A stretch of 64,000 bases of DNA, taken from positions 1,870,685 through 1,934,684 of the forward strand of contig NZ_CP073710.1 of assembly GCF_021184045.1 (NCBI RefSeq). The letters run 5' to 3'. Both the position numbers and the translations under genes were made by a program. The stretch is from Methanococcoides orientis (lineage in GTDB: Archaea; Halobacteriota; Methanosarcinia; Methanosarcinales; Methanosarcinaceae). Of this stretch, positions 18,959 to 33,037 are shown piece after piece (position 1 is the first letter of the stretch; each line of letters opens with the position of its first letter). The notes under the pieces are model-generated. The model saw only the letters and a program-made list of their open reading frames with translations. It ran no database searches and was not told the origin of the DNA.

Positions 18959-19033
18959 GGGCCCGTGGCTTAGCCAGGATATAGCACCGGGCTTCTAACC
19001 CGGGGGTCGTGGGTTCAACTCCCACCGGGTCCG
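18959..19033 (+). tRNA. tRNA-Arg (UCU), integration target
   Basis: A 75-nt cloverleaf: acceptor GGGCCCG with CGGGTCC, anticodon arm CGGGC-TTCTAAC-CCGGG with anticodon TCT, T arm with GGGTTCAACTCCC, discriminator G, no encoded CCA. Its last 17 nt are repeated at 31003-31019, so this tRNA is the attachment site of the 12-kb element and was kept intact by the insertion. Confidence 0.95.
19017..19033 (+). repeat. attL, 17-bp core inside tRNA-Arg 3' end
   Basis: AACTCCCACCGGGTCCG forms the T-arm/acceptor 3' half of tRNA-Arg and is identical to 31003-31019. The flanking bases on both sides differ, which defines the core exactly. Confidence 0.9.
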
Positions 19034-19338
19034 CTAAAAATGTTTAGAAAGTCCTAAGCAGATATTGAAACTCGCAAGATTTCAGTATCTGTTTATTTGC
19101 TTTTTTTGCACTTAACCTTGATGTTTTATGCGTGATTTTGACCAGAGATTAAACAGGATTGTATCTGCTGGGAGCCACAACTAGCCATTACCAAAACTTC
19201 TCACAATATTGGGCAGACGTATCACCCGCACAGATATTTTCATAAAGTTCCATGAATACAACTGAGCCTGCCTATGCAAGAGTCATAGGAATCAGTGCAC
19301 CCACTTGCTGTAACGAAATGGAAGTAAACGAGATATGG
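19034..19338. other. Left end of the element, non-coding
   Basis: About 305 bp between attL and the first small gene. It holds the hairpin terminator above; beyond that I see no reading frame or repeat. AGTCCTAA occurs at 19050 and again at 31035, at a similar distance from the two att cores. Confidence 0.4.
19060..19107 (+). terminator. Replacement terminator for tRNA-Arg, supplied by the element
   Basis: An 11-bp near-perfect stem (19060-19070 with 19080-19090, one mismatch) and a 9-nt loop are followed by a T-rich run ending CTTTTTTT. It lies just inside the element, so it can stop tRNA-Arg transcripts after the native terminator was displaced to 31031. Confidence 0.6.
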
Positions 19339-19563
19339 TCACCATAACCAACGAGTTTCTTTCCTCGTATTTAGGCCTAAAAGTATTGTCAGTACAATAC
19401 ATATTATCCACGCAGTGATAGAAGCTAACAGATCAAAGGACCCCATTGTATCTCTTAGCGCATAGATAAGAATCAATTCAATCATACCGCCCAATAAGAG
19501 AGCAAGTACCCATTTTGTAAACTGCCCATTTGGCCTCCACTCCGATTCTAAAGCAATTCTCAT
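19339..19563 (-). CDS. Small two-helix membrane protein, hypothetical
   Basis: 74 residues with two predicted transmembrane helices (about 17-36 and 43-63) and a basic end (NTRKETRWLW). No family recognised. It is the leftmost gene of the element and divergent from the large surface protein at 19667. It could be an accessory membrane protein of the element; a chance frame cannot be excluded. Confidence 0.45.
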   Translation of the reverse strand: MRIALESEWRPNGQFTKWVLALLLGGMIELILIYALRDTMGSFDLLASITAWIICIVLTILLGLNTRKETRWLW

Positions 19564-19666
19564 CGAATTTTTAGTAATTCAAATAACTATATTAACGATG
19601 TTTAAGAATTGATGTGAGGAATTGTCTCTTCTTTGATTTATGAGGCTAAAATTTGGAGTCGTATTA

Positions 19667-22600
19667 ATGAGAAACGAATTATTTAGGAAGTTTGGTATTG
19701 GTATCCTCTTTGCATTCTTAATGCTGAGTGTTGTTACTATGGCGAGTGCAGAAGAAATAGACGTGACATTTGTAAGCAATTATGATACTGGTAGTGCATG
19801 TGATGTTGCTATCTCCGGCAATTATGCATACGTAGCTGATGTTTCCAACGGTCTTGTGATCGTAGACATCAGTGATCCTGTAAAACCAACACGTGTAGGA
19901 AGCTATGGTGCTTCAGCACAAGGTGTTGCTGTCTCTGGCAACTACGCCTACGTAGCCGATTATATCAATGGTCTCTTGATTATTGATATCAGCAACCCCT
20001 CAGCACCAGCACTTGCAGGAAATTATGATATTTCTCCTTATACGTTTGGTGTTGATGTTTCCGGCAACTACGCCTATCTGGCCGATTACAGCAATGGTCT
20101 TGTGATCGTTGATATCAGTACCCCCTCAAAACCAACATTTGCAGGTAGATGTGATACTTATTATTATGCACGCGATGTTGCTGTCTACGGCAACTACGCT
20201 TACCTTGCAGATAACTCCTATGGCCTATTAATTATTGATATCAGCAACCCCTCAACACCAACAATTGTAGGAAATTGTGATCCTGCGAGTTATACACACG
20301 AAGCTGATGTCTCCGGCAACTATGCTTACGTATTAGATTATTTAAATGGTTTTGTGATAGCTGACATAAGTGACCCCACAGCACCAATTCCTGTAGGAAA
20401 TTATAATTCTGGTGCTAGTGGAATCGGAATTTCTGCCTACGACAATTACGTCTACGTATCCGATCGGACTAATGGTCTTGTTATTGTGAATGTCAGTGAC
20501 CCCACAGCACCAACACTTGCAGGTAGTTATGCTTGTGACTCTGCAAATGATGTTGTTGTCTCCGGTAATTATGCCTACGTAGCCGATGGGTACAAAGGTC
20601 TTACTATCCTTCACATGGCACCATTAGTATCAAACAATGCACCAATAGCCACAATTTCTTCAGTTTTCCCGAATCCTGCATTTGAATGCATGCCTATAGA
20701 GTTCGATGCATCAAGTTCATCAGATCCTGATGGGGATATTCTTACTTACAGGTGGGACTTCGATAACGATGGTATATGGGACTACGAGTCATCAGAACCT
20801 ACAGCAACATACACGTGGGATGATGACTATACTGGAACCGTCACTCTCGAAGTAAATGATGGTGAGTTTACAGATACTGCTACTACAACATTAACTGTAA
20901 ACAATGTTGCACCAGTCGTAGATGCAGGATCTGACCAGAGCGTTCATGAAGGTTCTAATGTTGGATTCTTTGGAACTTTCAGTGATGTAGGATTCCTCGA
21001 TACTCACACAATCTTGTGGGACTTTGGTGACGGTTTTACAGAATCCGGAACCCTGACACCTTCACATGTTTACACAGATAGTGGAACCTACACAGTCACC
21101 CTCACAGTAACAGATGATGATGGCGGTATTGGAACTGATACTCTTACGACAACAGTGACTATGGCGAGCTCAGAAGAGATGGATGTAGAATTCACAAGCC
21201 ATTATGATACTCCCAGTTATGCATTTGATGTTGATGTTTTCGGCAATTACGCCTATGTAGCTGACAAAGACAATGGTCTTGTGATTGTTGATATTAGTGA
21301 ACCATCAGAACCAGCATTTACGGCCAGGTATGATACTGATAATGATGCAAGAGGTGTTGTTGTCTCAGACGACTACGCTTACGTAGCCGATAATTCGAAT
21401 GGCCTTGTTATCGTGGATGTCAGCAACCCAGCAGCACCTAAACTTGCAGGCAAGTATAATACTGATGGTTATGCATGGCGTGTTGCTGTCTCAGGCGACT
21501 ATGCTTACGTAGCCGATTGGACTAATGGTCTTGTGATTGTGGATGTCAGAAATCCAGAAGCACCAACACTTGCAGGCTGGTATGATACTGATTCTGCATT
21601 TGGTGTTGATGTTTCCGGCGACTACGCCTATGTAGCTGACAAAGACAATGGTCTTGTTATCGTTGACATAAGTAATCCAACAGCACCTGAACTTGCAAGT
21701 AATTATGGTGCTAATGATGCAAGGGGTGTTGTTGTCTCAGGCGACTACGCTTACGTAGCCGATAATTCGAATGGTCTTGCTATCTTGGATGTCAGCAACC
21801 CAGCAGCACCTAAACTTGCGAGTAATTGCGACACTGCTGGGTTTGCATGCGATGTTGTTGTCTCCGGCGACTATGCCTACGTAGCCGATAATTCGAATGG
21901 CCTTGTTGTCGTGGATGTCAGCAATCCAGAAGCACCAACACTTGCAGGAAATTACGATACGGCTGATAACTCAAAAGGTGTTGCTGTCTCAGGCAATTAT
22001 GCCTACGTAGCCGATGGGACAACTGGTCTTGTGATTCTTCAAATAACACCACCAATCTCAAACAATGCACCAACGGCCACAATTTCTTCAACCACTCCAG
22101 ACCCTGCATTTGAAGGGATGCCTATAGAGTTCGATGCATCAAGTTCATCAGATCCTGATGGGGATATTCTTACTTACAGGTGGGACTTCGATAACGATGG
22201 TATATGTGACTACGAATCATCAGAACCTACAGCAACATACACTTGGGATGATGACTATACTGGAACCGTCGCGCTCGAAGTAAATGATGGTGAGTTTACA
22301 GATACTGCTACTACAACATTAACTGTCAACAATGTTGCACCAGTTGTGGATGCAATTGAAATTGAAAATACTATAAATGAAAATGAGATTGCAACCGTTT
22401 CTGGTTCCATCAATGACCTTGGACTCCTTGACACCTTTGAGGTGGTAATAGATTGGGGTGACGGTACTAATGCTGAAACCTTCAGCTATCCAGCAGAAAC
22501 TACTGCATTCAGTGAAACTCACCAGTATCTGGATGATGATCCTAGTAGCACACAATCAGACGAATATACTGTGACTGTAACTGTCTCTGATGATGATGGG

Positions 22601-23383
22601 GGCGTTGATACTGCATCTACTATTGTAAGGGTGAACAATGTTGCACCGGAAAGAATCTCATTGTCTTTCCCATTTGAGCCTATATCAGTAAATGAACCTC
22701 TAACAATCAGTTCAGACTACACTGATGTAGGAACTTTAGATACACACACAGTAACTATAGATTGGGGTGAGGGTGACAGTGCATCTGATGTTAGTGTTTC
22801 TTCTTTAAATGCAGATTACTCATCTCACTCATACACGAGTGCCGGAGTATACAAAATTAGTTTAACAGTAACAGATGATGACCAAGGTTCTGCTTCCATA
22901 ACTTCTGATCAATATGTTGTTGTCTATGACTCCGATGGTGGATTTGTGACTGGTGGTGGATGGATTGAGTCACCAGAAGGTGCTTATTTCCCTGATCCTG
23001 CTCTTACTGGAAAAGCCACATTTGGTTTTGTTTCCAAATACAAGAAGGGAGCAACTGTGCCTACAGGTTCAACTGAGTTCCAGTTCAAGGTGGCTGATCT
23101 GAATTTCCATTCTGATGAATATGAGTGGCTCGTTGTTGCAGGTTCAAAGGCCAAATACAAGGGAACTGGTACGATCAATGGTGAAGGCAACTATGGATTT
23201 ATGTTGACCGCAATCGACGCAGAACTCACACCAAGCACAGAGGTTGACATGTTCAGGATAAAGATATGGGATAAAGACGATGGCGATGCTGTGGTCTACG
23301 ACAATATGTTGGGAGCAGATGAGGGCGAAGATCCAACAACAGCAATTGGTGGAGGAGCAATAAAAATCCACCAAACAAAATAA
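19667..23383 (+). CDS. Giant secreted LVIVD-repeat / PKD protein
   Basis: 1238 residues. A signal peptide ends near TMASAEE. Then come about seven LVIVD repeats (GNYAYVAD-x4-GLVIVDIS, ~42 residues each), a pair of PKD domains, a second block of about seven LVIVD repeats, three more PKD domains, and a C-terminal domain starting VTGGGWIESPEGAYF that matches post-COAP-1-type tails. LVIVD repeats are thought to fold as beta-propellers. The second half begins with a copy of the sequence right after the signal peptide (TMASSEEMDV), so the mature protein arose by tandem duplication. No membrane anchor is visible at the end. The start at 19667 is set by GGAG 8 bp upstream. It probably acts in adhesion or surface cover; cargo of the tRNA-Arg element. 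Confidence 0.88.
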   Translation: MRNELFRKFGIGILFAFLMLSVVTMASAEEIDVTFVSNYDTGSACDVAISGNYAYVADVSNGLVIVDISDPVKPTRVGSYGASAQGVAVSGNYAYVADYINGLLIIDISNPSAPALAGNYDISPYTFGVDVSGNYAYLADYSNGLVIVDISTPSKPTFAGRCDTYYYARDVAVYGNYAYLADNSYGLLIIDISNPSTPTIVGNCDPASYTHEADVSGNYAYVLDYLNGFVIADISDPTAPIPVGNYNSGASGIGISAYDNYVYVSDRTNGLVIVNVSDPTAPTLAGSYACDSANDVVVSGNYAYVADGYKGLTILHMAPLVSNNAPIATISSVFPNPAFECMPIEFDASSSSDPDGDILTYRWDFDNDGIWDYESSEPTATYTWDDDYTGTVTLEVNDGEFTDTATTTLTVNNVAPVVDAGSDQSVHEGSNVGFFGTFSDVGFLDTHTILWDFGDGFTESGTLTPSHVYTDSGTYTVTLTVTDDDGGIGTDTLTTTVTMASSEEMDVEFTSHYDTPSYAFDVDVFGNYAYVADKDNGLVIVDISEPSEPAFTARYDTDNDARGVVVSDDYAYVADNSNGLVIVDVSNPAAPKLAGKYNTDGYAWRVAVSGDYAYVADWTNGLVIVDVRNPEAPTLAGWYDTDSAFGVDVSGDYAYVADKDNGLVIVDISNPTAPELASNYGANDARGVVVSGDYAYVADNSNGLAILDVSNPAAPKLASNCDTAGFACDVVVSGDYAYVADNSNGLVVVDVSNPEAPTLAGNYDTADNSKGVAVSGNYAYVADGTTGLVILQITPPISNNAPTATISSTTPDPAFEGMPIEFDASSSSDPDGDILTYRWDFDNDGICDYESSEPTATYTWDDDYTGTVALEVNDGEFTDTATTTLTVNNVAPVVDAIEIENTINENEIATVSGSINDLGLLDTFEVVIDWGDGTNAETFSYPAETTAFSETHQYLDDDPSSTQSDEYTVTVTVSDDDGGVDTASTIVRVNNVAPERISLSFPFEPISVNEPLTISSDYTDVGTLDTHTVTIDWGEGDSASDVSVSSLNADYSSHSYTSAGVYKISLTVTDDDQGSASITSDQYVVVYDSDGGFVTGGGWIESPEGAYFPDPALTGKATFGFVSKYKKGATVPTGSTEFQFKVADLNFHSDEYEWLVVAGSKAKYKGTGTINGEGNYGFMLTAIDAELTPSTEVDMFRIKIWDKDDGDAVVYDNMLGADEGEDPTTAIGGGAIKIHQTK

Positions 23384-23393
23384 TTGCATAAGT

Positions 23394-23435
23394 GTGGAGA
23401 ATACAAAATTCTCCACGAACTTTTTATTTTTGTGA
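23394..23435 (+). terminator. Terminator after the LVIVD/PKD gene
   Basis: A perfect 8-bp stem (GTGGAGAA with TTCTCCAC, 23394-23401 and 23409-23416) and a 7-nt loop are followed by CTTTTTATTTTT. It lies 10 bp after the stop codon. Confidence 0.75.
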
Positions 23436-23646
23436 TGCTGATTTTTTTCCTCTCTAAAGTTGTTAATGGACCATTTTTTGTAAAGAGTATGAAATTATAT
23501 TACATTTGATTTCTTCAAAATGGATGTGCTCCTATTCCACAATACATGGGGTTTAAAAATAATTTTTCATATTTCTGCAATAAATAGTACAAAAATATAA
23601 ATATTAAAACCTAAAACTAGGAAGAGCTTAAAATATAATATAGGTT

Positions 23647-25365
23647 GTGATTTTAATTAAAAAGTATGTGGTGATTTTAACAATTGTTCTAGCTTTAATA
23701 ACAGCGGGAGCTTCAAGCGCTGCAGAAGGCGTTGAGGAATGGAATGTAACCTTTGGGGGGGATGAAAACGAATATGGAGGGTCCGTCCAGCAGACCTCCG
23801 ACGGTGGATATATCATACTTAGTTCCGCAAATATCTCTGGTTCTTATGATATGTGGCTTATTAAGACCAACAACCTCGGTTCCGAGGAATGGAATGTAAC
23901 CTTTGGTGGGGATGAACGTGAATATGGAGAGTACGTCCAGCAGACTACCGATGGTGGATATATTCTAGCTGGAAGTAAAGAGACTTTTTATGGATGGGAT
24001 GACGGGTGGCTTATTAAGACCAACGACACAGGTTCCGAGGAATGGAATGTAACCTTTGGTAACAGTGGATATTATGATGAGACGTTATATTCTGTCCAGC
24101 AGACCTCTGATGGCGGATATATTGTAGCCGGTGAGAGTGATAATTACGATGATTATGACATGTGGGTTATCAAGACCAACGAAACGGGTTCCAAGGAATG
24201 GAGTTATACCTATGATGGTGGTCTTGATGACATGGCAATGACTGTCCAGCAGACCAACGATGGTGGATATATTGTAGCTGGTGAAAAAGAGGTTCCCTAC
24301 TCAGGTACTACTGGTGCCATTGAGGGTGACGCATTGCTTGTTAAGCTCAGCGACACAGGTTCCGAGGAATGGGTTGTAACTTCAGGCGTGGGATTTATAA
24401 CAGAGGTTGCAAATTCTGTCCAGCAGACCTCCGATGGTGGATATATTCTAGCTGGTGACTCATATTATGGTGATGATGAAATGTTCGTTGTCAAAACCAA
24501 CGACTCAGGTTTCGAGGAATGGAATGCAACTTATACTGGTGACTATGCAAATTCTGTCCAGCAGACCTCCGATGATGGATATATTGTAGCTGGTGAAAAA
24601 TATCCACATGGCATGTACTTAATCAAAATCAACGATACAGGTTTCGAGGAATGGATTCTTCCTATTGGTGATAAGTATGGGTCTGGTAGTGCAAACTCCG
24701 TCCAACATACCTCCGATGGTGGATATATTGTAGTCGGTGAAATATATAATGGTGATAATCGTAACATATGCCTTGCCAAGATAAAAGAAAACAATGCTCC
24801 TGTGTTGTTCCCAATAGGTGATCAAAGCATTAATGAGACTGAAAATCTCAATTTCACAATTACTGCCGATGATGCTGATGCCGGTGATATTCTAACCTAT
24901 ACCTCCGATAATCTTCCCACAGGTGCTACATTTAATGACAGTACATGTGTATTTTCGTGGACACCTTCCAGCTCCCAGTCTGGGGTTTATTTGGTCGAGT
25001 TTACTGTTTCCGATGGCGCTCTGAGTGATTCAGAAACCATTAGTATCACAGTCAATAATGTTGACACCGGTGACAGTTCCTCTGATGATAGTTCCTCCAA
25101 GCGTAGTTCCTCCGGTGGCACTGGTAATGCAGTAATCGTACCAGTTCAGGAAGAAACTGAAGAGATGGAAGAGAATACCACTTCCAGTTCAGATGGCATT
25201 GGTAATGCAACCATAATAGTTCCTGAAGAGGAAACACCTGAAGAGGAAGTTGTTGAAGAAACATATGAAATGGAAGCAGAAACTGAGGCAACTCCAGGCT
25301 TCAGCACAATGTTGACAACTGGCATTCTGTTATCAGCATATGTTATTTACAGAAGGAAGGATTGA
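23647..25365 (+). CDS. Secreted repeat protein with Ig-like domain and PGF-CTERM-like anchor
   Basis: 572 residues. A signal peptide (about 1-28) is followed by about eight imperfect repeats of ~45-60 residues built on EEWNVTFGG and VQQTSDGGYIVAG, likely blades of a beta-propeller. A putative Ig-like domain (about 385-470, DADAGDILTYTSDNLP), a Ser-rich and acidic linker, then TPGF, one hydrophobic helix and RRKD follow; this is the layout of PGF-CTERM substrates of archaeosortase A, so the protein should be cut and lipid-anchored on the cell surface. The GTG at 23647 is taken as start. It is the second surface-protein cargo gene of the element, with its own terminator. Confidence 0.85.
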   Translation: MILIKKYVVILTIVLALITAGASSAAEGVEEWNVTFGGDENEYGGSVQQTSDGGYIILSSANISGSYDMWLIKTNNLGSEEWNVTFGGDEREYGEYVQQTTDGGYILAGSKETFYGWDDGWLIKTNDTGSEEWNVTFGNSGYYDETLYSVQQTSDGGYIVAGESDNYDDYDMWVIKTNETGSKEWSYTYDGGLDDMAMTVQQTNDGGYIVAGEKEVPYSGTTGAIEGDALLVKLSDTGSEEWVVTSGVGFITEVANSVQQTSDGGYILAGDSYYGDDEMFVVKTNDSGFEEWNATYTGDYANSVQQTSDDGYIVAGEKYPHGMYLIKINDTGFEEWILPIGDKYGSGSANSVQHTSDGGYIVVGEIYNGDNRNICLAKIKENNAPVLFPIGDQSINETENLNFTITADDADAGDILTYTSDNLPTGATFNDSTCVFSWTPSSSQSGVYLVEFTVSDGALSDSETISITVNNVDTGDSSSDDSSSKRSSSGGTGNAVIVPVQEETEEMEENTTSSSDGIGNATIIVPEEETPEEEVVEETYEMEAETEATPGFSTMLTTGILLSAYVIYRRKD

Positions 25366-25390
25366 TAAACAATCCTTCTTATCTTTTTTA
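25357..25390 (+). terminator. Terminator after the PGF-CTERM-like gene
   Basis: A perfect 8-bp stem AAGGATTG/CAATCCTT with a 5-nt loop overlaps the stop codon and is followed by TCTTATCTTTTTT. Confidence 0.75.
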
Positions 25391-25516
25391 ATTTCACTCT
25401 TATTTTGAAGTTACTTTCTTTTTAAAGTGGATGCAATACAATTATTTCTAAAATAAATGTGTTGTCATTTTAAGTAATTCAACAGACATATGTTTCCCTC
25501 AGTCCAAAGAGTAATC

Positions 25517-25729
25517 TTAAGAATAGTAGCTTTGATTTTCTTTTACTCTTGAAATCCTAATTACATTCACATCCGCATTAGGTTCATGCTCTTCAATATC
25601 TGCAATTTGCGTCATAGCTGCCTCTTCCTCAGGACTACCTTCAATAAAAATGAACGCATGGAACTTTCCAGTTCCGTTTATGCGTCTCTCCAGCAGCTTG
25701 AGCTTACGTTCAAGTGCCATGATGCTCAT
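25517..25729 (-). CDS. Small element protein, hypothetical (70 aa)
   Basis: Last gene of the element's replication operon; its ATG overlaps the stop of the 91-aa gene (ATGA), so it is translationally coupled. It has a basic N-terminus (ALERKLKLLERRING) and an acidic middle (EGSPEEEAAM), and no recognised family. It may be a small partner of the replication protein; not testable from sequence. Confidence 0.55.
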   Translation of the reverse strand: MSIMALERKLKLLERRINGTGKFHAFIFIEGSPEEEAAMTQIADIEEHEPNADVNVIRISRVKENQSYYS

Positions 25730-26001
25730 CTGTTGGTCTCCTCACATGCCGCCTCGAGCAGCTCCAGTCTTGCCTTGACATCCTCAAGCTCTTCATCCCT
25801 CAGGACCATGTTGTGGGTCTGGATGGCAGTCATAAGAACTCTTAGGTACTTCAGTTTGATATTGTCACCCTCACGCTCCCTGAAGCGCTGTACTTTGACC
25901 CGATCGTAGATGTCCTGAATTACCTCTGATGAAAGAGATAAAAGCCCATCACGGTTTAATTTTTTTAAGCAATCCGAGTCAATGCTGGTTTCATTTATCA
26001 T
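25726..26001 (-). CDS. Small helical element protein, hypothetical (91 aa)
   Basis: A mostly helical, charged protein with no recognised family. It lies 49 bp downstream of the primase/helicase gene and overlaps the next gene by 4 bp. The C-terminal half (RDEELEDVKARLELLEAA) has heptad character and may form a coiled coil. A replication accessory or DNA-binding protein is a guess from operon position. Confidence 0.6.
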   Translation of the reverse strand: MINETSIDSDCLKKLNRDGLLSLSSEVIQDIYDRVKVQRFREREGDNIKLKYLRVLMTAIQTHNMVLRDEELEDVKARLELLEAACEETNR

Positions 26002-26049
26002 TTTCGGCCTCCATATTGTTGCATTTCCGAGGTGGTTGACAATTATATG

Positions 26050-28695
26050 TCAGTTATAGTCCCCCTTCTGCTTATCGTCAATATTGAAGATTCTCATGAC
26101 TACTCGCTTTACATTGTTGAGTTGGTCTGGAGGGACCTTGTGTTTTCTACAATACTCGTGGGTTACACCAACATAGTTACTTGAGTTGATAGTTTCCTGC
26201 AAGGTTTCTTCCCACTTATGGCACCATTGTTCCAGTTTGAACAAGTCCAGACCATGACCATTCTCTTGTTTCACTGATTGCACCAACTTCACCGTATCAT
26301 CTGTAATATCATGTTCAAAAGTTGCGCGTATAGCTGTGTTATTACCACCTTTATCCTGATTCTTCACCAATTTCACCTCACCTTTTGTTCCCTCTGTGAA
26401 ACAGTGAAGTTCGTGAAGCGCGCGAAGTTTGTGAAAACTCTTGCTTGTATCGATGTTTATCTTTTTACTGTCATCCAGTAGCACATAAGCCATAGCACCG
26501 GTATCTGTTACTTTGTGTTCAGATATTGCTTTTGATTCCAGTAGCGTTTCAATACAATCATCGAAATCTTTCTTTTTTAATTTCGAGTATCGCAAAAGGC
26601 GTGATCGATCAGATGTCCCACCCAGACGTCTTAAAGCAGAGACTACTTTTTCAATCTGGTTGTATCGGATATCTTCCTGAAGGCGATCAATAATGTTCAG
26701 ACAGGAAGGTAAGAAATAATCAATTACAAGAGAGGAGGCTAATATAATACTCCTCTTGTGCATAGTAGTACTTATTTCAGGCATCCCTATTTCAATCAAC
26801 ATCGCAATCTTAAGTATGTGTACTTGTGCACGGCCTACTGCAGAATTAACCATATCATTATCTGCTTTTTCAGCCTCATCTTCAAGAGCTTCCAATATCT
26901 GATTATAATATTCCATTGCATCATCATCAACTTCGAAAAGAATCATGTTGCAATCTTTGAAGTGGTTATACAATATCCTGATACGGGCTTGAAGCTTTGC
27001 CCACATATTGACATCTTCCTTCGTTTCAACCTCTAGCGGCTTTCGCTCATGTCTATAGTTAGGATACGCATACAAGAAACGATAACCATAGCCGGACTCG
27101 AAGTCTTCAATTCGCATGTATCTGGAGAAATTATCCGGAGTGGAGGCATAGAGATGAGTCACACACGGTGACTTGACAACATACTCCTTCGGCTTGTTAT
27201 TTTTTCCTGAAGCAAGTGTCTTCTTGTAGTCCTGGCAATCATAAATCGCGCACTCTGCTTCAAAAATCCCCTCGTTATACTTTTTGTGGTATTTTGCAAA
27301 AAGTCCTGCAGCTTCATCCCTTACAAAATTGCATATTGGATGTTCTGAAAGTGTTTCCAGATAGCCTTCAATTGAATAGTCATCATTGTATAGTGTGGTA
27401 TCTGTAGCACTTGCATAGATACTTCGTGCTTTATTCACAACTGTGGATTTTCTGCTGGTTGTAGATTTCCCCAACACTATCACCCATATATTCGGTTTTA
27501 CTACTTCCTGTTTCAACCGTAGCTCGACCTTACCCTGTGTAGCTGCCGACAGCATCCAAAGGGCTGAAGTAACCTGATACTCGTAATACCCATCTGTTAT
27601 GCTGCTCATCCACGATGTAAGCTGATTGATCAAATGTTGTTCAGGTAAGACCTCTTTTAGGTCAACCATGCGCCTGTTTTTCTGTTTGATAGCCAGCTCC
27701 TTTAGTTCTTCCTGACTTATTTCGGTTACATCTTTTTCAGTATCATTGTCTCTCTCATAGGTCGGAGGAGTGTATATTTCAGTAAGGCCATCAAGTGCAA
27801 AGTGTATAGTCATCTCCCCATATGTGAGATTTCCACGTTTTTCATCCCATTTTGGACGGATAAGTTGTGATCTCCTAAATAACCGGTCAATTTGCGAGAG
27901 ATCCTGTGTGTAAAACGCAAGGATACTGCAAAGAGCCTGATCTGCTGCACTGTGATCTCCCTCGTGCATTGATGTGTACCCTTCATATAATGCTTCGAAT
28001 TTATCCGCATTCCTGGCACCCATACATAAAGATATGACTTTTTCATCAGTTAGTTCTGGGCTTTTCGTGAATGAAAACGCCGACTTGGAAGTTCCTTCCT
28101 CCTTTTCAGGTTTTAGTCGATTATACATTGCTTGTATCGCATCTTTTGGAACATCATTGATATCTGTGGGTGTACCATCTAAATGTTGGCCAGTGACTAC
28201 AAAGAAACGACCATGATCGTACATCTCACCACTAGGCATGTTAACACCTTTCTCACTGGGGACCTTTCCTTTTCCTATTACGTGTACACCGGTGCCACTT
28301 TGCGAGATTTCTGCATAACTACCCATACTGTGAATCTCTGCGAGTGCATCGGAATAATATTCGCCAGTTTCTGTATTTTTGATGTCATCCCAGTCCATTC
28401 CAATAAAACCATTTTCAATCACAAAAGCAATACCTGCATAGTTTCCCGTCTTATAATCATGGATGGCCTCATCATATGTCGACCAGGTATTAGGATCAGT
28501 GCTGCTTGCCAACTCATCACCACACTTATTGGGGTCTGATTTCTTGCTGGTTGCACGATATGGTCTTTTTACATCCTTCCAGTTCCCATCTTTATCCTTT
28601 TCTTTTGTGAGCTTCCAAAGTATCCATTGAGGAAGCATTTTTAATTCTTCGGGGATTCCATCTTCATTTACTTTGATTACTGGAGCAAGGGTCAT
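26050..28695 (-). CDS. Primase-polymerase/helicase replication protein of the element
   Basis: 881 residues. The N-terminal ~200 residues look like an archaeo-eukaryotic primase-polymerase: a GMDWDD acidic motif and SQSGTGVHVIGKG, the conserved Ser/His segment, with a start similar to NrS-1-like phage polymerases. A helicase of DUF3987-like type follows, with Walker A LGKSTTSRKST near residue 407. A C-terminal region of ~200 residues (YSKLKKKDFDDCI) resembles a winged helix. Such proteins can prime and unwind DNA for plasmid or virus replication. Its ATG overlaps the upstream stop by 4 bp. An in-place role as replication initiator is inferred. Confidence 0.82.
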   Translation of the reverse strand: MTLAPVIKVNEDGIPEELKMLPQWILWKLTKEKDKDGNWKDVKRPYRATSKKSDPNKCGDELASSTDPNTWSTYDEAIHDYKTGNYAGIAFVIENGFIGMDWDDIKNTETGEYYSDALAEIHSMGSYAEISQSGTGVHVIGKGKVPSEKGVNMPSGEMYDHGRFFVVTGQHLDGTPTDINDVPKDAIQAMYNRLKPEKEEGTSKSAFSFTKSPELTDEKVISLCMGARNADKFEALYEGYTSMHEGDHSAADQALCSILAFYTQDLSQIDRLFRRSQLIRPKWDEKRGNLTYGEMTIHFALDGLTEIYTPPTYERDNDTEKDVTEISQEELKELAIKQKNRRMVDLKEVLPEQHLINQLTSWMSSITDGYYEYQVTSALWMLSAATQGKVELRLKQEVVKPNIWVIVLGKSTTSRKSTVVNKARSIYASATDTTLYNDDYSIEGYLETLSEHPICNFVRDEAAGLFAKYHKKYNEGIFEAECAIYDCQDYKKTLASGKNNKPKEYVVKSPCVTHLYASTPDNFSRYMRIEDFESGYGYRFLYAYPNYRHERKPLEVETKEDVNMWAKLQARIRILYNHFKDCNMILFEVDDDAMEYYNQILEALEDEAEKADNDMVNSAVGRAQVHILKIAMLIEIGMPEISTTMHKRSIILASSLVIDYFLPSCLNIIDRLQEDIRYNQIEKVVSALRRLGGTSDRSRLLRYSKLKKKDFDDCIETLLESKAISEHKVTDTGAMAYVLLDDSKKINIDTSKSFHKLRALHELHCFTEGTKGEVKLVKNQDKGGNNTAIRATFEHDITDDTVKLVQSVKQENGHGLDLFKLEQWCHKWEETLQETINSSNYVGVTHEYCRKHKVPPDQLNNVKRVVMRIFNIDDKQKGDYN

Positions 28696-28847
28696 TTTTC
28701 TGCCTCCATAACTTCACTGGCAAAGTCAACCAACATTTTTAGTATTGGATTTGTTTTCTCAATAATCATATACAGTTCCGGGTCATTGTGTACTGCTGCA
28801 AACTTCTGGATAAGAGGGTGAGTTTTGAGAACTTCAAGATCTTTCAT
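28692..28847 (-). CDS. 51-aa protein coupled to the primase gene, hypothetical
   Basis: It starts at the ATG at 28847, preceded by a strong Shine-Dalgarno (GGAGGTG), and overlaps the upstream RHH gene by 14 bp. The stop overlaps the primase start (ATGA). The product MKDLEVLKTHPLIQKFAAVH... is amphipathic and helical. No family recognised. The tight coupling suggests it works with the replication protein. Confidence 0.6.
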   Translation of the reverse strand: MKDLEVLKTHPLIQKFAAVHNDPELYMIIEKTNPILKMLVDFASEVMEAEK

Positions 28848-28989
28848 CCTCACACCTCCGCACATGTTCCTTAATTGCAATTTCAGCTTCAGTCTTTATC
28901 GCACCGCGGAATTTTTTGTGTTTTTTGAAAGCATATTCCCGCAATAGCTGTGCAATTTCTGAATCGATTTTGATATCTGTTCGAGGCAT
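28834..28989 (-). CDS. Ribbon-helix-helix-like DNA-binding protein (51 aa)
   Basis: A short gene starting MPRTDIKIDSEIAQLLREYA and ending CEDERS. A short beta-strand-like start followed by two basic helices is the pattern of CopG/Arc-type regulators, which control plasmid copy number or partition. It is the first gene of the replication operon and is divergent from the winged-helix gene at 29076, with an inverted repeat between them. The family call is from layout only. Confidence 0.6.
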   Translation of the reverse strand: MPRTDIKIDSEIAQLLREYAFKKHKKFRGAIKTEAEIAIKEHVRRCEDERS

Positions 28990-29026
28990 AATAGACAGTT
29001 AGACCAACACAAATAAATAGATTTAC

Positions 29027-29060
29027 AAGGTTATATTATAATAATACTAAAAATAACCTT
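29027..29060. promoter_or_regulatory. Operator-like inverted repeat between divergent regulators
   Basis: AAGGTTAT (29027-29034) and ATAACCTT (29053-29060) are perfect inverted copies with 18 AT-rich bp between them, inside the 86-bp region shared by the replication operon and the winged-helix gene. It could be bound by either regulator to balance both transcripts. Confidence 0.45.
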
Positions 29061-29075
29061 AAAAGGGAATTAATA

Positions 29076-29753
29076 ATGCCACGTGGTAAGAAAATATCAT
29101 CGTTTGTGGACCTCTTGAATCGACCAGTATATCGAGAAATACGTGAACTGCTGAGGAAAGAAGGGCGATTGATGACAGCAAAAGAAATAAAAGAGAATCT
29201 TTTCCCTTTGCGAGCCGCATCCATATCTGCTTCGAAAGAACAAATGTACACCAATGAAAGATATTATCCTACAATGAAAGATCAGACATTAAATGTATAC
29301 TTGAAAAAAATGTCTGATTTTGGTTTGATTGAAAAAATACAACTATCTGACAAAAGACGTTCCGCTTACCGAGCACTTACCTTTGAAAAAGAGTTCGAAC
29401 TTCGAAAAACAGCACCTAAACCAAGTATAAAAGAAATGATACATGAGGTTGCTCCTGAAGATAGAGACCGTTTTAAAAGAAATGCTGTTAAAGGTAATCC
29501 TGAAAAAGGAACTATTGGTTCAGATGCACTGGTGATGATGAATCCTACTTATTTTGAAAAAGAAACGTCGGAGCAGCTCATCCTTGATGCAATAGACGAA
29601 GCAGTAAAGGCTATACATAAAGATTTAGTAACCACAGAACAAGATTGTGATGTAAAAGTTCATATGATTTCGGATAGGTTTAAAAGTGGTAAATATATAT
29701 CTGCCTCGAATATAACTGGGGTGGATATATGTGTAAAAGTATTCCATGATTAA
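29076..29753 (+). CDS. Winged-helix regulator of the element
   Basis: 225 residues. The first ~110 residues look like a winged helix (MTAKEIKENLFPL, later LNVYLKKMSDFGLIEKIQLSDKRRSAYRAL). The rest is a separate unrecognised domain with a basic middle and an acidic C-terminus. It starts 15 bp after an inverted repeat and faces the replication operon divergently, so it is the likely switch controlling replication or excision. It is convergent with the integrase gene (14 bp between stops). Confidence 0.65.
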   Translation: MPRGKKISSFVDLLNRPVYREIRELLRKEGRLMTAKEIKENLFPLRAASISASKEQMYTNERYYPTMKDQTLNVYLKKMSDFGLIEKIQLSDKRRSAYRALTFEKEFELRKTAPKPSIKEMIHEVAPEDRDRFKRNAVKGNPEKGTIGSDALVMMNPTYFEKETSEQLILDAIDEAVKAIHKDLVTTEQDCDVKVHMISDRFKSGKYISASNITGVDICVKVFHD

Positions 29754-29767
29754 TATCGTGCACTACA

Positions 29768-30961
29768 TTACTGCATTTTAGCCAACAATTTCTTCCCTGC
29801 ATCAGTATTCAAAGCCAACTGTAAAAGTTCTGGTATCACCTGTTCACATTCCTGTATTTGACCGAGTGCTTCACGGTTCAAGACAAGGGAGCACTGCGAA
29901 CAGAACTTATCTTCAGGTCTCAATACATTGTTACATCGTGGACAAGCCTTAAGTGTCACATGCCTTTTATCTTTGGTCTTGAGACCATATTTCTCAAAGA
30001 TCCGGTCGTTAATCTCATTGTCTGTGAAGTTCGCGTAGATCTTGAACATCTGCGTGGAACCACGAGACCAACCGGCCCTATGCTTGATCTCCTGTTCATT
30101 AAGGCCGTCAAGGATCCAGTTCGTGATAGCAAGATGACGGAAACTGTGAGGATTTACAGGTTTCTTGATACCAGCACGTCCCCCAATTTTAACGATGATA
30201 GTACGTGCCGTTTTGTAACTTAATGGTGTTCGGTTTTTGTCAAGAGTTACCCACAAAGGAGCATCATGATCCTCCTTGAATGGATGAACCGAAAGCCACT
30301 GGTTAAGGTAGCCTGTAGACCATGTTATAGGTATGCCTTTAGCAGCAGTTGATTTCTTACTCTTCGATGTTTTAGAGATGTACAAAATCGCACCATACTG
30401 ATTGAACTCCACATTCTTGATGCGACAGGAAGCCAACGCACCAATTCTCATCCCGCTATCTGCAAGGACAGCAATTAAGGCCTTGTCGCGCGGATGGTTA
30501 CAATAATCTAGCAGCTTATCAAGCTCATCCCGAGTAAGAAGATCTGATGGCTGGACAGGAGTCTCAATTGCCTTCAAAGTCATCTGTGCAATCCATTTCG
30601 GAGGCTCACCGTCATAGGCCCAGCGGAACAGCTTCTTAATTAATTTCTTGTGGTTTCGAATACCTCCAGCAGTGAGATTTTTCTCATCTTCAAGGTATAT
30701 TAACAAACGATCAAAGTCGTCCTGATCCAATTGATCTAACCGCTTTTCAATGTCTATTGTGCGTAAATATTCAGCAGTACGCTTGCTATAATCGACATAC
30801 CAGATAAGTGTCGTTTTTGCTAGCCCCTCCCGCCTGCAAGCAAGTACAAATCTCTCGATTAAATCGATGTTATCTTCACCAATATCGGCATTCTTGAGCC
30901 TTTCCATAGCACGTGTGAACCCTATGGAAGATTTGTGGACATCGTCAACATCTTGAGTCAT
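29768..30961 (-). CDS. Tyrosine integrase with C-terminal zinc ribbon
   Basis: 397 residues. A SAM-like core-binding N-terminal domain (about 10-130) is followed by the catalytic domain with Arg in DSGMRIGAL, H-x2-R in HSFRHLAI, HRAGWS and the nucleophile Tyr in KIYANFT. After the catalytic domain a C-P-x-C...C-x2-C zinc ribbon (CPRCNNVL, FCSQCSLVL) is fused, a feature of some archaeal integrases. All catalytic residues are present. The gene sits 42 bp inside attR and reads away from it. It should integrate and excise the element at tRNA-Arg. Confidence 0.93.
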   Translation of the reverse strand: MTQDVDDVHKSSIGFTRAMERLKNADIGEDNIDLIERFVLACRREGLAKTTLIWYVDYSKRTAEYLRTIDIEKRLDQLDQDDFDRLLIYLEDEKNLTAGGIRNHKKLIKKLFRWAYDGEPPKWIAQMTLKAIETPVQPSDLLTRDELDKLLDYCNHPRDKALIAVLADSGMRIGALASCRIKNVEFNQYGAILYISKTSKSKKSTAAKGIPITWSTGYLNQWLSVHPFKEDHDAPLWVTLDKNRTPLSYKTARTIIVKIGGRAGIKKPVNPHSFRHLAITNWILDGLNEQEIKHRAGWSRGSTQMFKIYANFTDNEINDRIFEKYGLKTKDKRHVTLKACPRCNNVLRPEDKFCSQCSLVLNREALGQIQECEQVIPELLQLALNTDAGKKLLAKMQ

Positions 30962-31002
30962 ATATACAGATAAGATGTATAGGAGTATAAACTTTTAGAT
31001 GA

Positions 31003-31019
31003 AACTCCCACCGGGTCCG
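31003..31019 (+). repeat. attR, 17-bp copy of tRNA-Arg 3' end
   Basis: Identical to 19017-19033. It lies between the integrase start and the displaced native tRNA terminator at 31031. Confidence 0.9.
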
Positions 31020-31370: not shown

Positions 31371-31402
31371 GTTAACCACACAAAAAATTGGGTTTGAAAG
31401 AA

Positions 31403-33037
31403 ATGGGGAAATTTTTGAACATCGGGATGTTCTCCTGGGAGAGTTTACACTCGATAAAAGTAGGCGGTATAGCACCGCATGTTTCCGAACTTGCGGAAGC
31501 TCTTGCTGAGAAGGGAAATTCAGTCCACATATTTACCAGAAATTCAGGACTTGAACCATATGAGAAAGTAAACGGAGTTCACTACCATCGTGTGGACTAT
31601 TCTCTTGACGGGGGCATTGTCCAGCAAATGGACAGTATGTGCGATTCAATGTACTCAAGATTCCTTGATGTTACCGGGGAATATGGTAAGTTCGATATGT
31701 TGCATGTCCATGACTGGCATCCTGTCAATGTGGCCTCAAGGATAAGACATGAATTTGGTATACCCTTTATGTTCACATACCACAGTACCGAATGGGGAAG
31801 AAACGGTAACGTACACGGGGACTGGTGGGAAGCAAAGGAAATATCACACAGGGAATGGAAAGCCGGCTATGAATCTACAAAGGTAATCTCCACCTCACAA
31901 CAACTTACAGATGAGATCAAGGTCCTGTACCAGATACCCGATGAGAAAATATCCATTATTCCAAACGGTATCTTCCATGGGAAGATCAAGAAGGAAGTTG
32001 ATCCCGGTGAAGTGAAACAAAGATTGGGGATACATCCTCTTGCACCAGTTGTACTGTTCATAGGACGCATGAGCTACCAGAAAGGACCCGACTTGCTTGT
32101 TGAAGCGGTCCCGAAAGTGTTGGACCATCGCTGGGACACTCAGTTTGTCTTTATAGGTGAAGGTGAAATGCGCCCCCACTGTGAATATCTTGCAAATGCA
32201 GATAATGTTTCAGAACGTTGCCATTTTCTGGGGTATGCAGATGATGAAACAGCCAGGGATTGGTTCAATGCATGCGATATTCTCTGTGTCCCAAGCAGGA
32301 ATGAACCTTTTGGAATAGTCGTTCTTGAGGGCTGGGATGCTGAAAGGAACATCGTTGCAACAGATGCTGTCCAGATAATAGACAATTTCGTTGATGGAGT
32401 ACTTGTATACAAAAATCCAGAGTCTATTTCATGGGGCTTAAATTACGTGCTTGATGACCTCTCCAATGACAGCCTTAGAGAAACAGGTAAAGAGCTTATC
32501 GAGACAAAATTCAACTGGCACACAATTGCAGAAAAGACAATTGAAGCGTACAATTTGGATGAACAAAATGATTGGGTACCTGAGAAAACACTTGGAAAAG
32601 CAAAACTCTTTTGGTGGAAAATTGATAGTGATCTCAACCTTTTCATAAGCAAAGAATTTAGTTCACCAAATGGTAAGGTAAAAGTTGATAAACTCATCAT
32701 GAAGGATGAATTGAGTAAATTGGATGCTTATATGACAGATGACCATTGGAAAGATCTGTCAAATAACGTATCAAGATTAAGGAATGGGACCGAAAAAGAA
32801 GGAATCGGCAAATTCCTTTATCATGATCTTAATTGGACTCAGACAGAATCTCAGCTATCAAGCCACATCGGATCAATATTCCATCAGGCCGGTGTTTGGG
32901 AATACAATGGAAAAAAGAGAGGGATCCAATTTAGAAAAGTAGCAGGCGATTGGCACAAGCTGATGAAATGTTACTATGGAGAATGCATTAAAGAACTTGG
33001 TGAAACAGACCAACATAATAGCGTTGATCTTAAGTGA
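31403..33037 (+). CDS. Glycogen-synthase-like glycosyltransferase with C-terminal extension
   Basis: About 544 residues, GT-B fold. The N-terminal domain has the K-x-GG loop (HSIKVGGIAPHVSELAEAL) of GT5/GT4 enzymes. The C-terminal Rossmann domain has FIGRMSYQKGPDLLVEA and the E-x7-E motif in NEPFGIVVLEG. About 140 residues past the normal end form an unrecognised extension (about 400-544, with FWWKIDSD and KVAGDWHKL). It may make glycogen or a related glucan, or glycosylate a surface polymer. The ATG at 31403 is preferred to the upstream TTG. It is a single-gene transcript. Confidence 0.85.
   Translation: MGKFLNIGMFSWESLHSIKVGGIAPHVSELAEALAEKGNSVHIFTRNSGLEPYEKVNGVHYHRVDYSLDGGIVQQMDSMCDSMYSRFLDVTGEYGKFDMLHVHDWHPVNVASRIRHEFGIPFMFTYHSTEWGRNGNVHGDWWEAKEISHREWKAGYESTKVISTSQQLTDEIKVLYQIPDEKISIIPNGIFHGKIKKEVDPGEVKQRLGIHPLAPVVLFIGRMSYQKGPDLLVEAVPKVLDHRWDTQFVFIGEGEMRPHCEYLANADNVSERCHFLGYADDETARDWFNACDILCVPSRNEPFGIVVLEGWDAERNIVATDAVQIIDNFVDGVLVYKNPESISWGLNYVLDDLSNDSLRETGKELIETKFNWHTIAEKTIEAYNLDEQNDWVPEKTLGKAKLFWWKIDSDLNLFISKEFSSPNGKVKVDKLIMKDELSKLDAYMTDDHWKDLSNNVSRLRNGTEKEGIGKFLYHDLNWTQTESQLSSHIGSIFHQAGVWEYNGKKRGIQFRKVAGDWHKLMKCYYGECIKELGETDQHNSVDLK

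Follow-up and report, generated by a model that had tools for sequence, protein, structure and literature searches.

The segment lying between the two copies of a 17-bp repeat in the window (the whole 64-kb stretch of the Methanococcoides orientis chromosome that was analyzed) is very likely a complete and probably functional integrative element that belongs to a wider family of elements in the Methanosarcinales. That it is an integrative, plasmid-like element residing in a tRNA-Arg gene follows from the presence of empty sites in the genus, together with that of att-bounded relatives at other tRNA genes, and it is to be classed among the cryptic integrated elements, which are known from Thaumarchaeota. 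The window offers, for a methanogen genus, an integrative element with clear-cut limits, whose insertion site is vacant in a sister species. What is new here is that elements of 8-25 kb located at many Methanosarcinales tRNA genes form a family, which is marked by this integrase and endowed with an exchangeable cargo slot, and this wider family, including capsidless members with TerS and TerL, is a more interesting part of our findings than the window element itself. In an incomplete search of the literature on archaeal satellites, we found no description of such an exchangeable-slot family.

Boundaries of the element and empty sites in relatives

The repeat, AACTCCCACCGGGTCCG, is found in exactly two copies in the window, at positions 19017-19033 (attL) and 31003-31019 (attR), both read on the forward strand, and the inserted unit that it bounds measures 11,986 bp, in a host genome made of a single contig of 2,494,162 bp. 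The attL copy lies inside a tRNA-Arg(TCT) gene detected by ARAGORN (18959-19034, forward strand), where it corresponds to the T-loop/T-stem and to the acceptor 3' strand of the tRNA, and this integration target is complete with the element in place. A previous reading made from the sequence alone had recognized an exact 17-bp repeat representing the 3' end of tRNA-Arg(UCU) and an integrative element of about 12 kb, and both proposals are borne out, the second one also by an empty site in a relative; in its main lines, that reading was correct.

Comparing with close genomes that lack the insertion, as the same reading had suggested, we found this empty site in the nearest relative (genome G006), where both flanks of the element are contiguous and where one copy of the repeat is present. 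The left flank aligns to G006 up to position 19033 and the right flank from position 31003, giving an overlap of exactly 17 bp, and, once joined in a script, the two flanks align to G006 end to end over 4,064 bp, with 95.7% identity and no gap at the junction. This exact overlap and this gapless alignment indicate that the 17-bp repeat is not there by chance. G006 also has a homolog, 97% identical, of the glycosyltransferase gene that follows the element on its right side (31388-33037), and tRNA-Arg(TCT) is just upstream of this homolog, with nothing in between. Genes for tRNA-Arg(TCT) without the window element were also found in G003, G004, G007 and G010. The locus combines a direct repeat at a tRNA 3' end with an empty site in relatives, as expected for a tRNA-targeted tyrosine-integrase element. 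GC content, which is 0.36-0.45 inside the element and 0.37-0.51 in the surrounding windows, does not set it apart.

The left end of the element (19034-19120, forward strand) is similar to the trailer/terminator region that follows tRNA-Arg in other Methanococcoides: these 87 bp inside attL match the trailers of G009 (81%), G007 (76%) and G010 (75%), compared to a maximum of 67% with shuffled sequence. Since the left end matches the trailers of these congeners and since the trailer to the right of attR is a 95% match to that of G006, the element brings its own trailer. This trailer may reflect the passage of the element through a Methanococcoides host that had such a trailer; alternatively, the match might come from the relic of an older element in hosts of the G009/G007/G010 type. 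Given the insertion, which the empty site demonstrates, we infer that the integrase acts on the tRNA gene and on an attP that contains the 17 bp of the tRNA-Arg(TCT) 3' end, a recombination that would restore the tRNA and supply a new trailer. The element would leave as an 11,986-bp circle, which would replicate via its primase-polymerase/helicase under two divergent regulators. The cargo slot beside attL is filled by two secreted or surface-anchored repeat proteins. No nearly identical copy of the window element was found elsewhere in the family, which speaks against taking its recent mobility for granted.

Integrase, replication module and cargo

The gene adjoining attR encodes a tyrosine integrase of 397 aa (29768-30961, reverse strand; Pfam and PHROG matches) consisting of a Phage_integrase domain, a SAM-like domain and a C-terminal zinc ribbon (Pfam). 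It is full length, and an alignment of 20 sequences showed that its catalytic residues R172, K203, H272, R275, W298 and Y309 are kept; an intact integrase with the R-K-H-R-W-Y set is found beside one att site, and the sequence-only reading had likewise placed an intact tyrosine integrase next to attR. No excisionase was identified in the window element.

An imperfect inverted repeat (GGAGT...ACTCC; 30982-31008, reverse strand) surrounds a TATA-like box (30986-30991) that is located ~30 nt before the integrase ATG, a distance implying that the integrase mRNA would be leaderless. Many relatives of the integrase display an inverted repeat that begins 46-50 bp before the ATG, with a spacer of 11-13 nt containing a BRE/TATA-like stretch, and a perfect pair of 6-9 bp arms is found at this position in 11 out of 19 cases, that of the window being imperfect. 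In the window and at the same place in 18 relatives, the arms abut the att core and change together between elements, and it is this shared position and this co-variation that support the repeats, rather than single instances, for which the shuffle fractions of individual arms are only 0.02-0.38. The integrase or a regulator may bind this inverted repeat as a dyad site, placed over the integrase's own promoter.

Rep, a protein of 881 aa (26050-28695, reverse strand; Pfam and PHROG), combines an AEP primase-polymerase of the NrS-1/SaPI5 type, an HBD domain and a DUF3987 helicase-like domain: Pfam detects the HBD of the NrS-1 polymerase type and DUF3987, and the PHROG matches are DNA primases. 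Its N-terminal 310 residues can be aligned to the primase chain 7ola and to NrS-1 chains, with the DxD and SGxGxH motifs inside the aligned part, and an AEP domain with these motifs together with an HBD (PF22763 match) is what characterizes an NrS-1-type primase-polymerase. We take chain 7ola, which is named DNA primase, to be the SaPI5 enzyme. In fusions with primases of this type, DUF3987 is predicted to be a helicase (PMC5862659). The replication operon led by a primase-polymerase/helicase that had been proposed from the sequence is confirmed as far as Rep is concerned, but it also contains orf62 (28692-28880), a small conserved ORF found directly upstream of Rep in the integrase family, orf91 (25726-26001), a helical protein recurring in that family and whose predicted fold (pLDDT 73) gave no fold match, and orf70 (25517-25729), which also neighbors orf91 and a Rep in M. 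seepicolus (G009); all are on the reverse strand and recur in relatives. Two regulator genes, present and divergent as proposed, flank positions 29000-29075: orf51 (28834-28989, reverse strand; no profile match) and a 225-aa protein (29076-29753, forward strand; weak phrog_21146 match), with classes, ribbon-helix-helix-like and winged-helix-like, respectively, that were read by eye with no strong profile match.

The cargo comprises two secreted repeat proteins, as announced by the sequence-only reading, but with 1,247 and 572 aa these are not giant. The longer one (19640-23383, forward strand; Pfam, signal-like N-terminus) has PKD domains and LVIVD repeats, the latter having been defined from Methanosarcina surface proteins (PMC2447325), and its C-terminal 210 aa are 68% identical to a paralog encoded elsewhere in the host chromosome. 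The shorter one (S572; 23647-25365, forward strand) combines delta-60-like repeats with an Ig-like domain and ends in a membrane anchor-like tail that the longer one lacks; it has homologs in G003 and G001 (about 57%), and its pN/pS of about 0.6 points to weak constraint. A doubtful gene, orf74 (19339-19563, reverse strand; no homolog found), may encode a small membrane protein. Both cargo proteins have chromosomal relatives, and we most readily explain the pair as taken from the surface proteins of the host itself. Being of kinds that are common in the host genome, the cargo genes may be present through neutral hitchhiking. In relatives, this slot contains antiviral genes, which is why we would first consider a contribution to host fitness exerted at the cell surface, for example via altered attachment or virus exclusion, a suggestion that is tentative.

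Remnants of comparable genes were also seen at other places. At about 826-832 kb of the host chromosome (L149:10712-16697), a decayed Rep in split frames adjoins a gene for a secreted NHL-like repeat protein with a C-terminus 68% identical to that of the cargo protein, and orf91 and Rep HBD fragments form another relic at about 1,659 kb (L254:7386-7719). In M. seepicolus (G009, L128), a Rep fragment and an orf62 relative are found upstream of tRNA-Gln, and nearby genes encode a secreted, PKD-like protein of 1,058 aa as well as a nuclease of the MutH type.

A modular family with a variable cargo slot

Relatives of the integrase with more than ~50% identity were found across the order, in Methanolobus, Methanosarcina, Methanoperedens and others. 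For ten of these, a tRNA-end sequence present on both sides served to delimit elements of 8.4 to 25 kb, which target tRNA-Ala, Gln, Glu, Gly, Met or Arg genes and always carry the integrase 40-90 bp from attR. Eight of the ten delimiting repeats are 12-18 bp long and were accepted because they are on an annotated tRNA 3' end; that of G015 is beside tRNA-Ile, with no tRNA called at the repeat itself. Boundaries were not found for G121, G117, G004, G009, G096, G151 and G167, and that of G008a is uncertain.

As this comparison shows, the window element belongs to a modular Methanosarcinales family with a variable slot beside attL. Its members combine a fixed att-proximal integrase with the small orf62 and a primase-helicase that can be swapped; orf91 is often present too, and the cargo beside attL varies. 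The replication proteins can be of the AEP-DUF3987 type, of the DnaG type with D5/DUF5906, or other combinations. In the G132 element, the integrase is 67% identical to that of the window (pN/pS 0.25, with synonymous sites near saturation) and the Rep is 46% identical. In G023, the cargo slot is occupied by two FG-GAP/lamin-tail proteins whose N-termini are signal-like. Elsewhere it contains a defence gene, Dsr1, accompanied by a HEPN protein beside attL in a 17.3-kb element of Methanolobus G141 (L235), also in tRNA-Arg(TCT), a type I restriction-modification system in G118, a pentapeptide protein in G020, and TerS-TerL in G132 and G134. A chromosomal CobN-like gene, considered as cargo of some relatives, was rejected as it lies outside att in G008 and G004. 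The family exchanges surface proteins, antiviral systems and terminase genes in one position, which opens two questions to testing: are the surface proteins of methanogens mobilized as defence-like cargo, and do tailed viruses have satellites in archaea?

Satellite-like relatives and known systems

Two Methanolobus genomes, G132 (L228) and G134 (L229), carry elements of 11.9 and 13.0 kb at tRNA-Met and tRNA-Ala that encode TerS and a full TerL with no recognized portal or capsid, and a tape-measure-like ORF comes after TerS-TerL in G132. Their TerL proteins are 78% identical, with a pN/pS of 0.19 indicating purifying selection, and we regard these satellite-like elements as candidate archaeal satellites. 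A third relative, the 15.4-kb element of G023, has a TerS-like gene and shares its genome with an apparently complete tailed provirus (L257-L258), in which an 842-aa TerL ORF, possibly with an intein, is related to the TerLs of the satellite-like elements.

The window element could itself be a satellite of a tailed archaeal virus, which would excise and replicate upon infection by a helper and be packaged in the helper's particles. Bacterial PICIs are phage satellites packaged into helper particles, and the layout of the window element appears PICI-like, with the integrase at one end, divergent regulators (assigned by eye only), a primase-helicase, and cargo at the opposite end; its Rep aligns to chain 7ola, presumably from SaPI5, and it has an integrase in common with the G132 and G134 elements. 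Against this stand the facts that no terminase, capsid-interference or other packaging gene was detected in the window element with Pfam and PHROGs, that a related TerL is absent from the host's own genome and that the TerS of the G023 provirus has no match to the TerS-like gene of the G023 element, and we consider a satellite of this kind unlikely. A broader proposal, in which the window element would belong to a family of archaeal virus satellites with a PICI-like primase, with their own TerS-TerL in some members, with cargo traded in the slot (Dsr1, restriction systems, surface proteins) and with surface proteins serving virus exclusion, is in our view quite doubtful.

The absence of structural and conjugation genes, noted earlier from the sequence, agrees with our searches, in which no capsid, terminase or conjugation genes were found in the window element at Pfam/PHROG sensitivity: this covers the portal, major capsid and terminase genes of a tailed provirus and, by Pfam, the VirB4/TraD-type conjugation genes of an integrative conjugative element. 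It is very unlikely that the window element is a decayed tailed provirus that kept its replication and integration genes and gained cargo: the G132 relative does have TerS, TerL and a tape-measure-like gene, but the integrase and Rep of the window element are intact, no virion gene fragments were found in it by Pfam or PHROG, and gene sets just as small are seen in many att-bounded relatives. In a phage collection, the integrases of ThalV2 and Geoglobus pleomorphic virus 1 were among the best matches, with only 26-32% identity, and viral contigs scanned with Rep, the integrase and an integrase alignment yielded no relatives. Two short DNA matches, in G152 and G162, were rejected as CRISPR spacers, these stretches having no repeats and reading as ordinary genes. 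A pleomorphic (pleolipo-like) virus with the surface proteins as virion spikes is highly improbable despite these two integrase matches and a similar element size, given that low identity, the lack of a pleolipovirus NTPase or small multi-TM protein set among our findings, and the chromosomal homologs of the cargo proteins.

We return to the cryptic integrated element (CIE), which, in the sense of an earlier study (PMC6563490), combines an integrase and a replication protein with no virion or conjugation genes, and this is what the window element contains. Integrated primpol elements with RHH/wHTH regulators are known in Thaumarchaeota, one of them carrying an S-layer protein with an Ig domain (PMC6563490), and tRNA-Arg(TCT) ranks with the integration targets that are used most often in archaea (PMC8371274); with such precedents, the statement of the sequence-only reading that elements of this kind are little described was too strong. 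Like the NrS-1 polymerase and the AEP-DUF3987 proteins of mobile elements (PMC5862659), the window Rep has an AEP domain, an HBD linker and a helicase-like ATPase domain, but it is only distantly similar to characterized members, with a match limited to the N-terminal 310 residues. The element resembles Gram-positive PICIs by its apparent layout, its NrS-1/SaPI5-type primase, its far-end cargo and the TerS of some relatives, but differs from them by its archaeal host and by having no packaging or interference gene, and a helper is not among our findings. It is closest in kind to the thaumarchaeal CIEs (median 17 kb; PMC6563490), with which it shares a tyrosine integrase, a tRNA target, a primpol Rep, putative RHH/wHTH regulators and the absence of a virion or conjugation module. 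Unlike these, it is found in another host group, its Rep is an NrS-1-type AEP fused to DUF3987, and its family is built on one integrase lineage with small conserved ORFs that extends over many tRNA targets.
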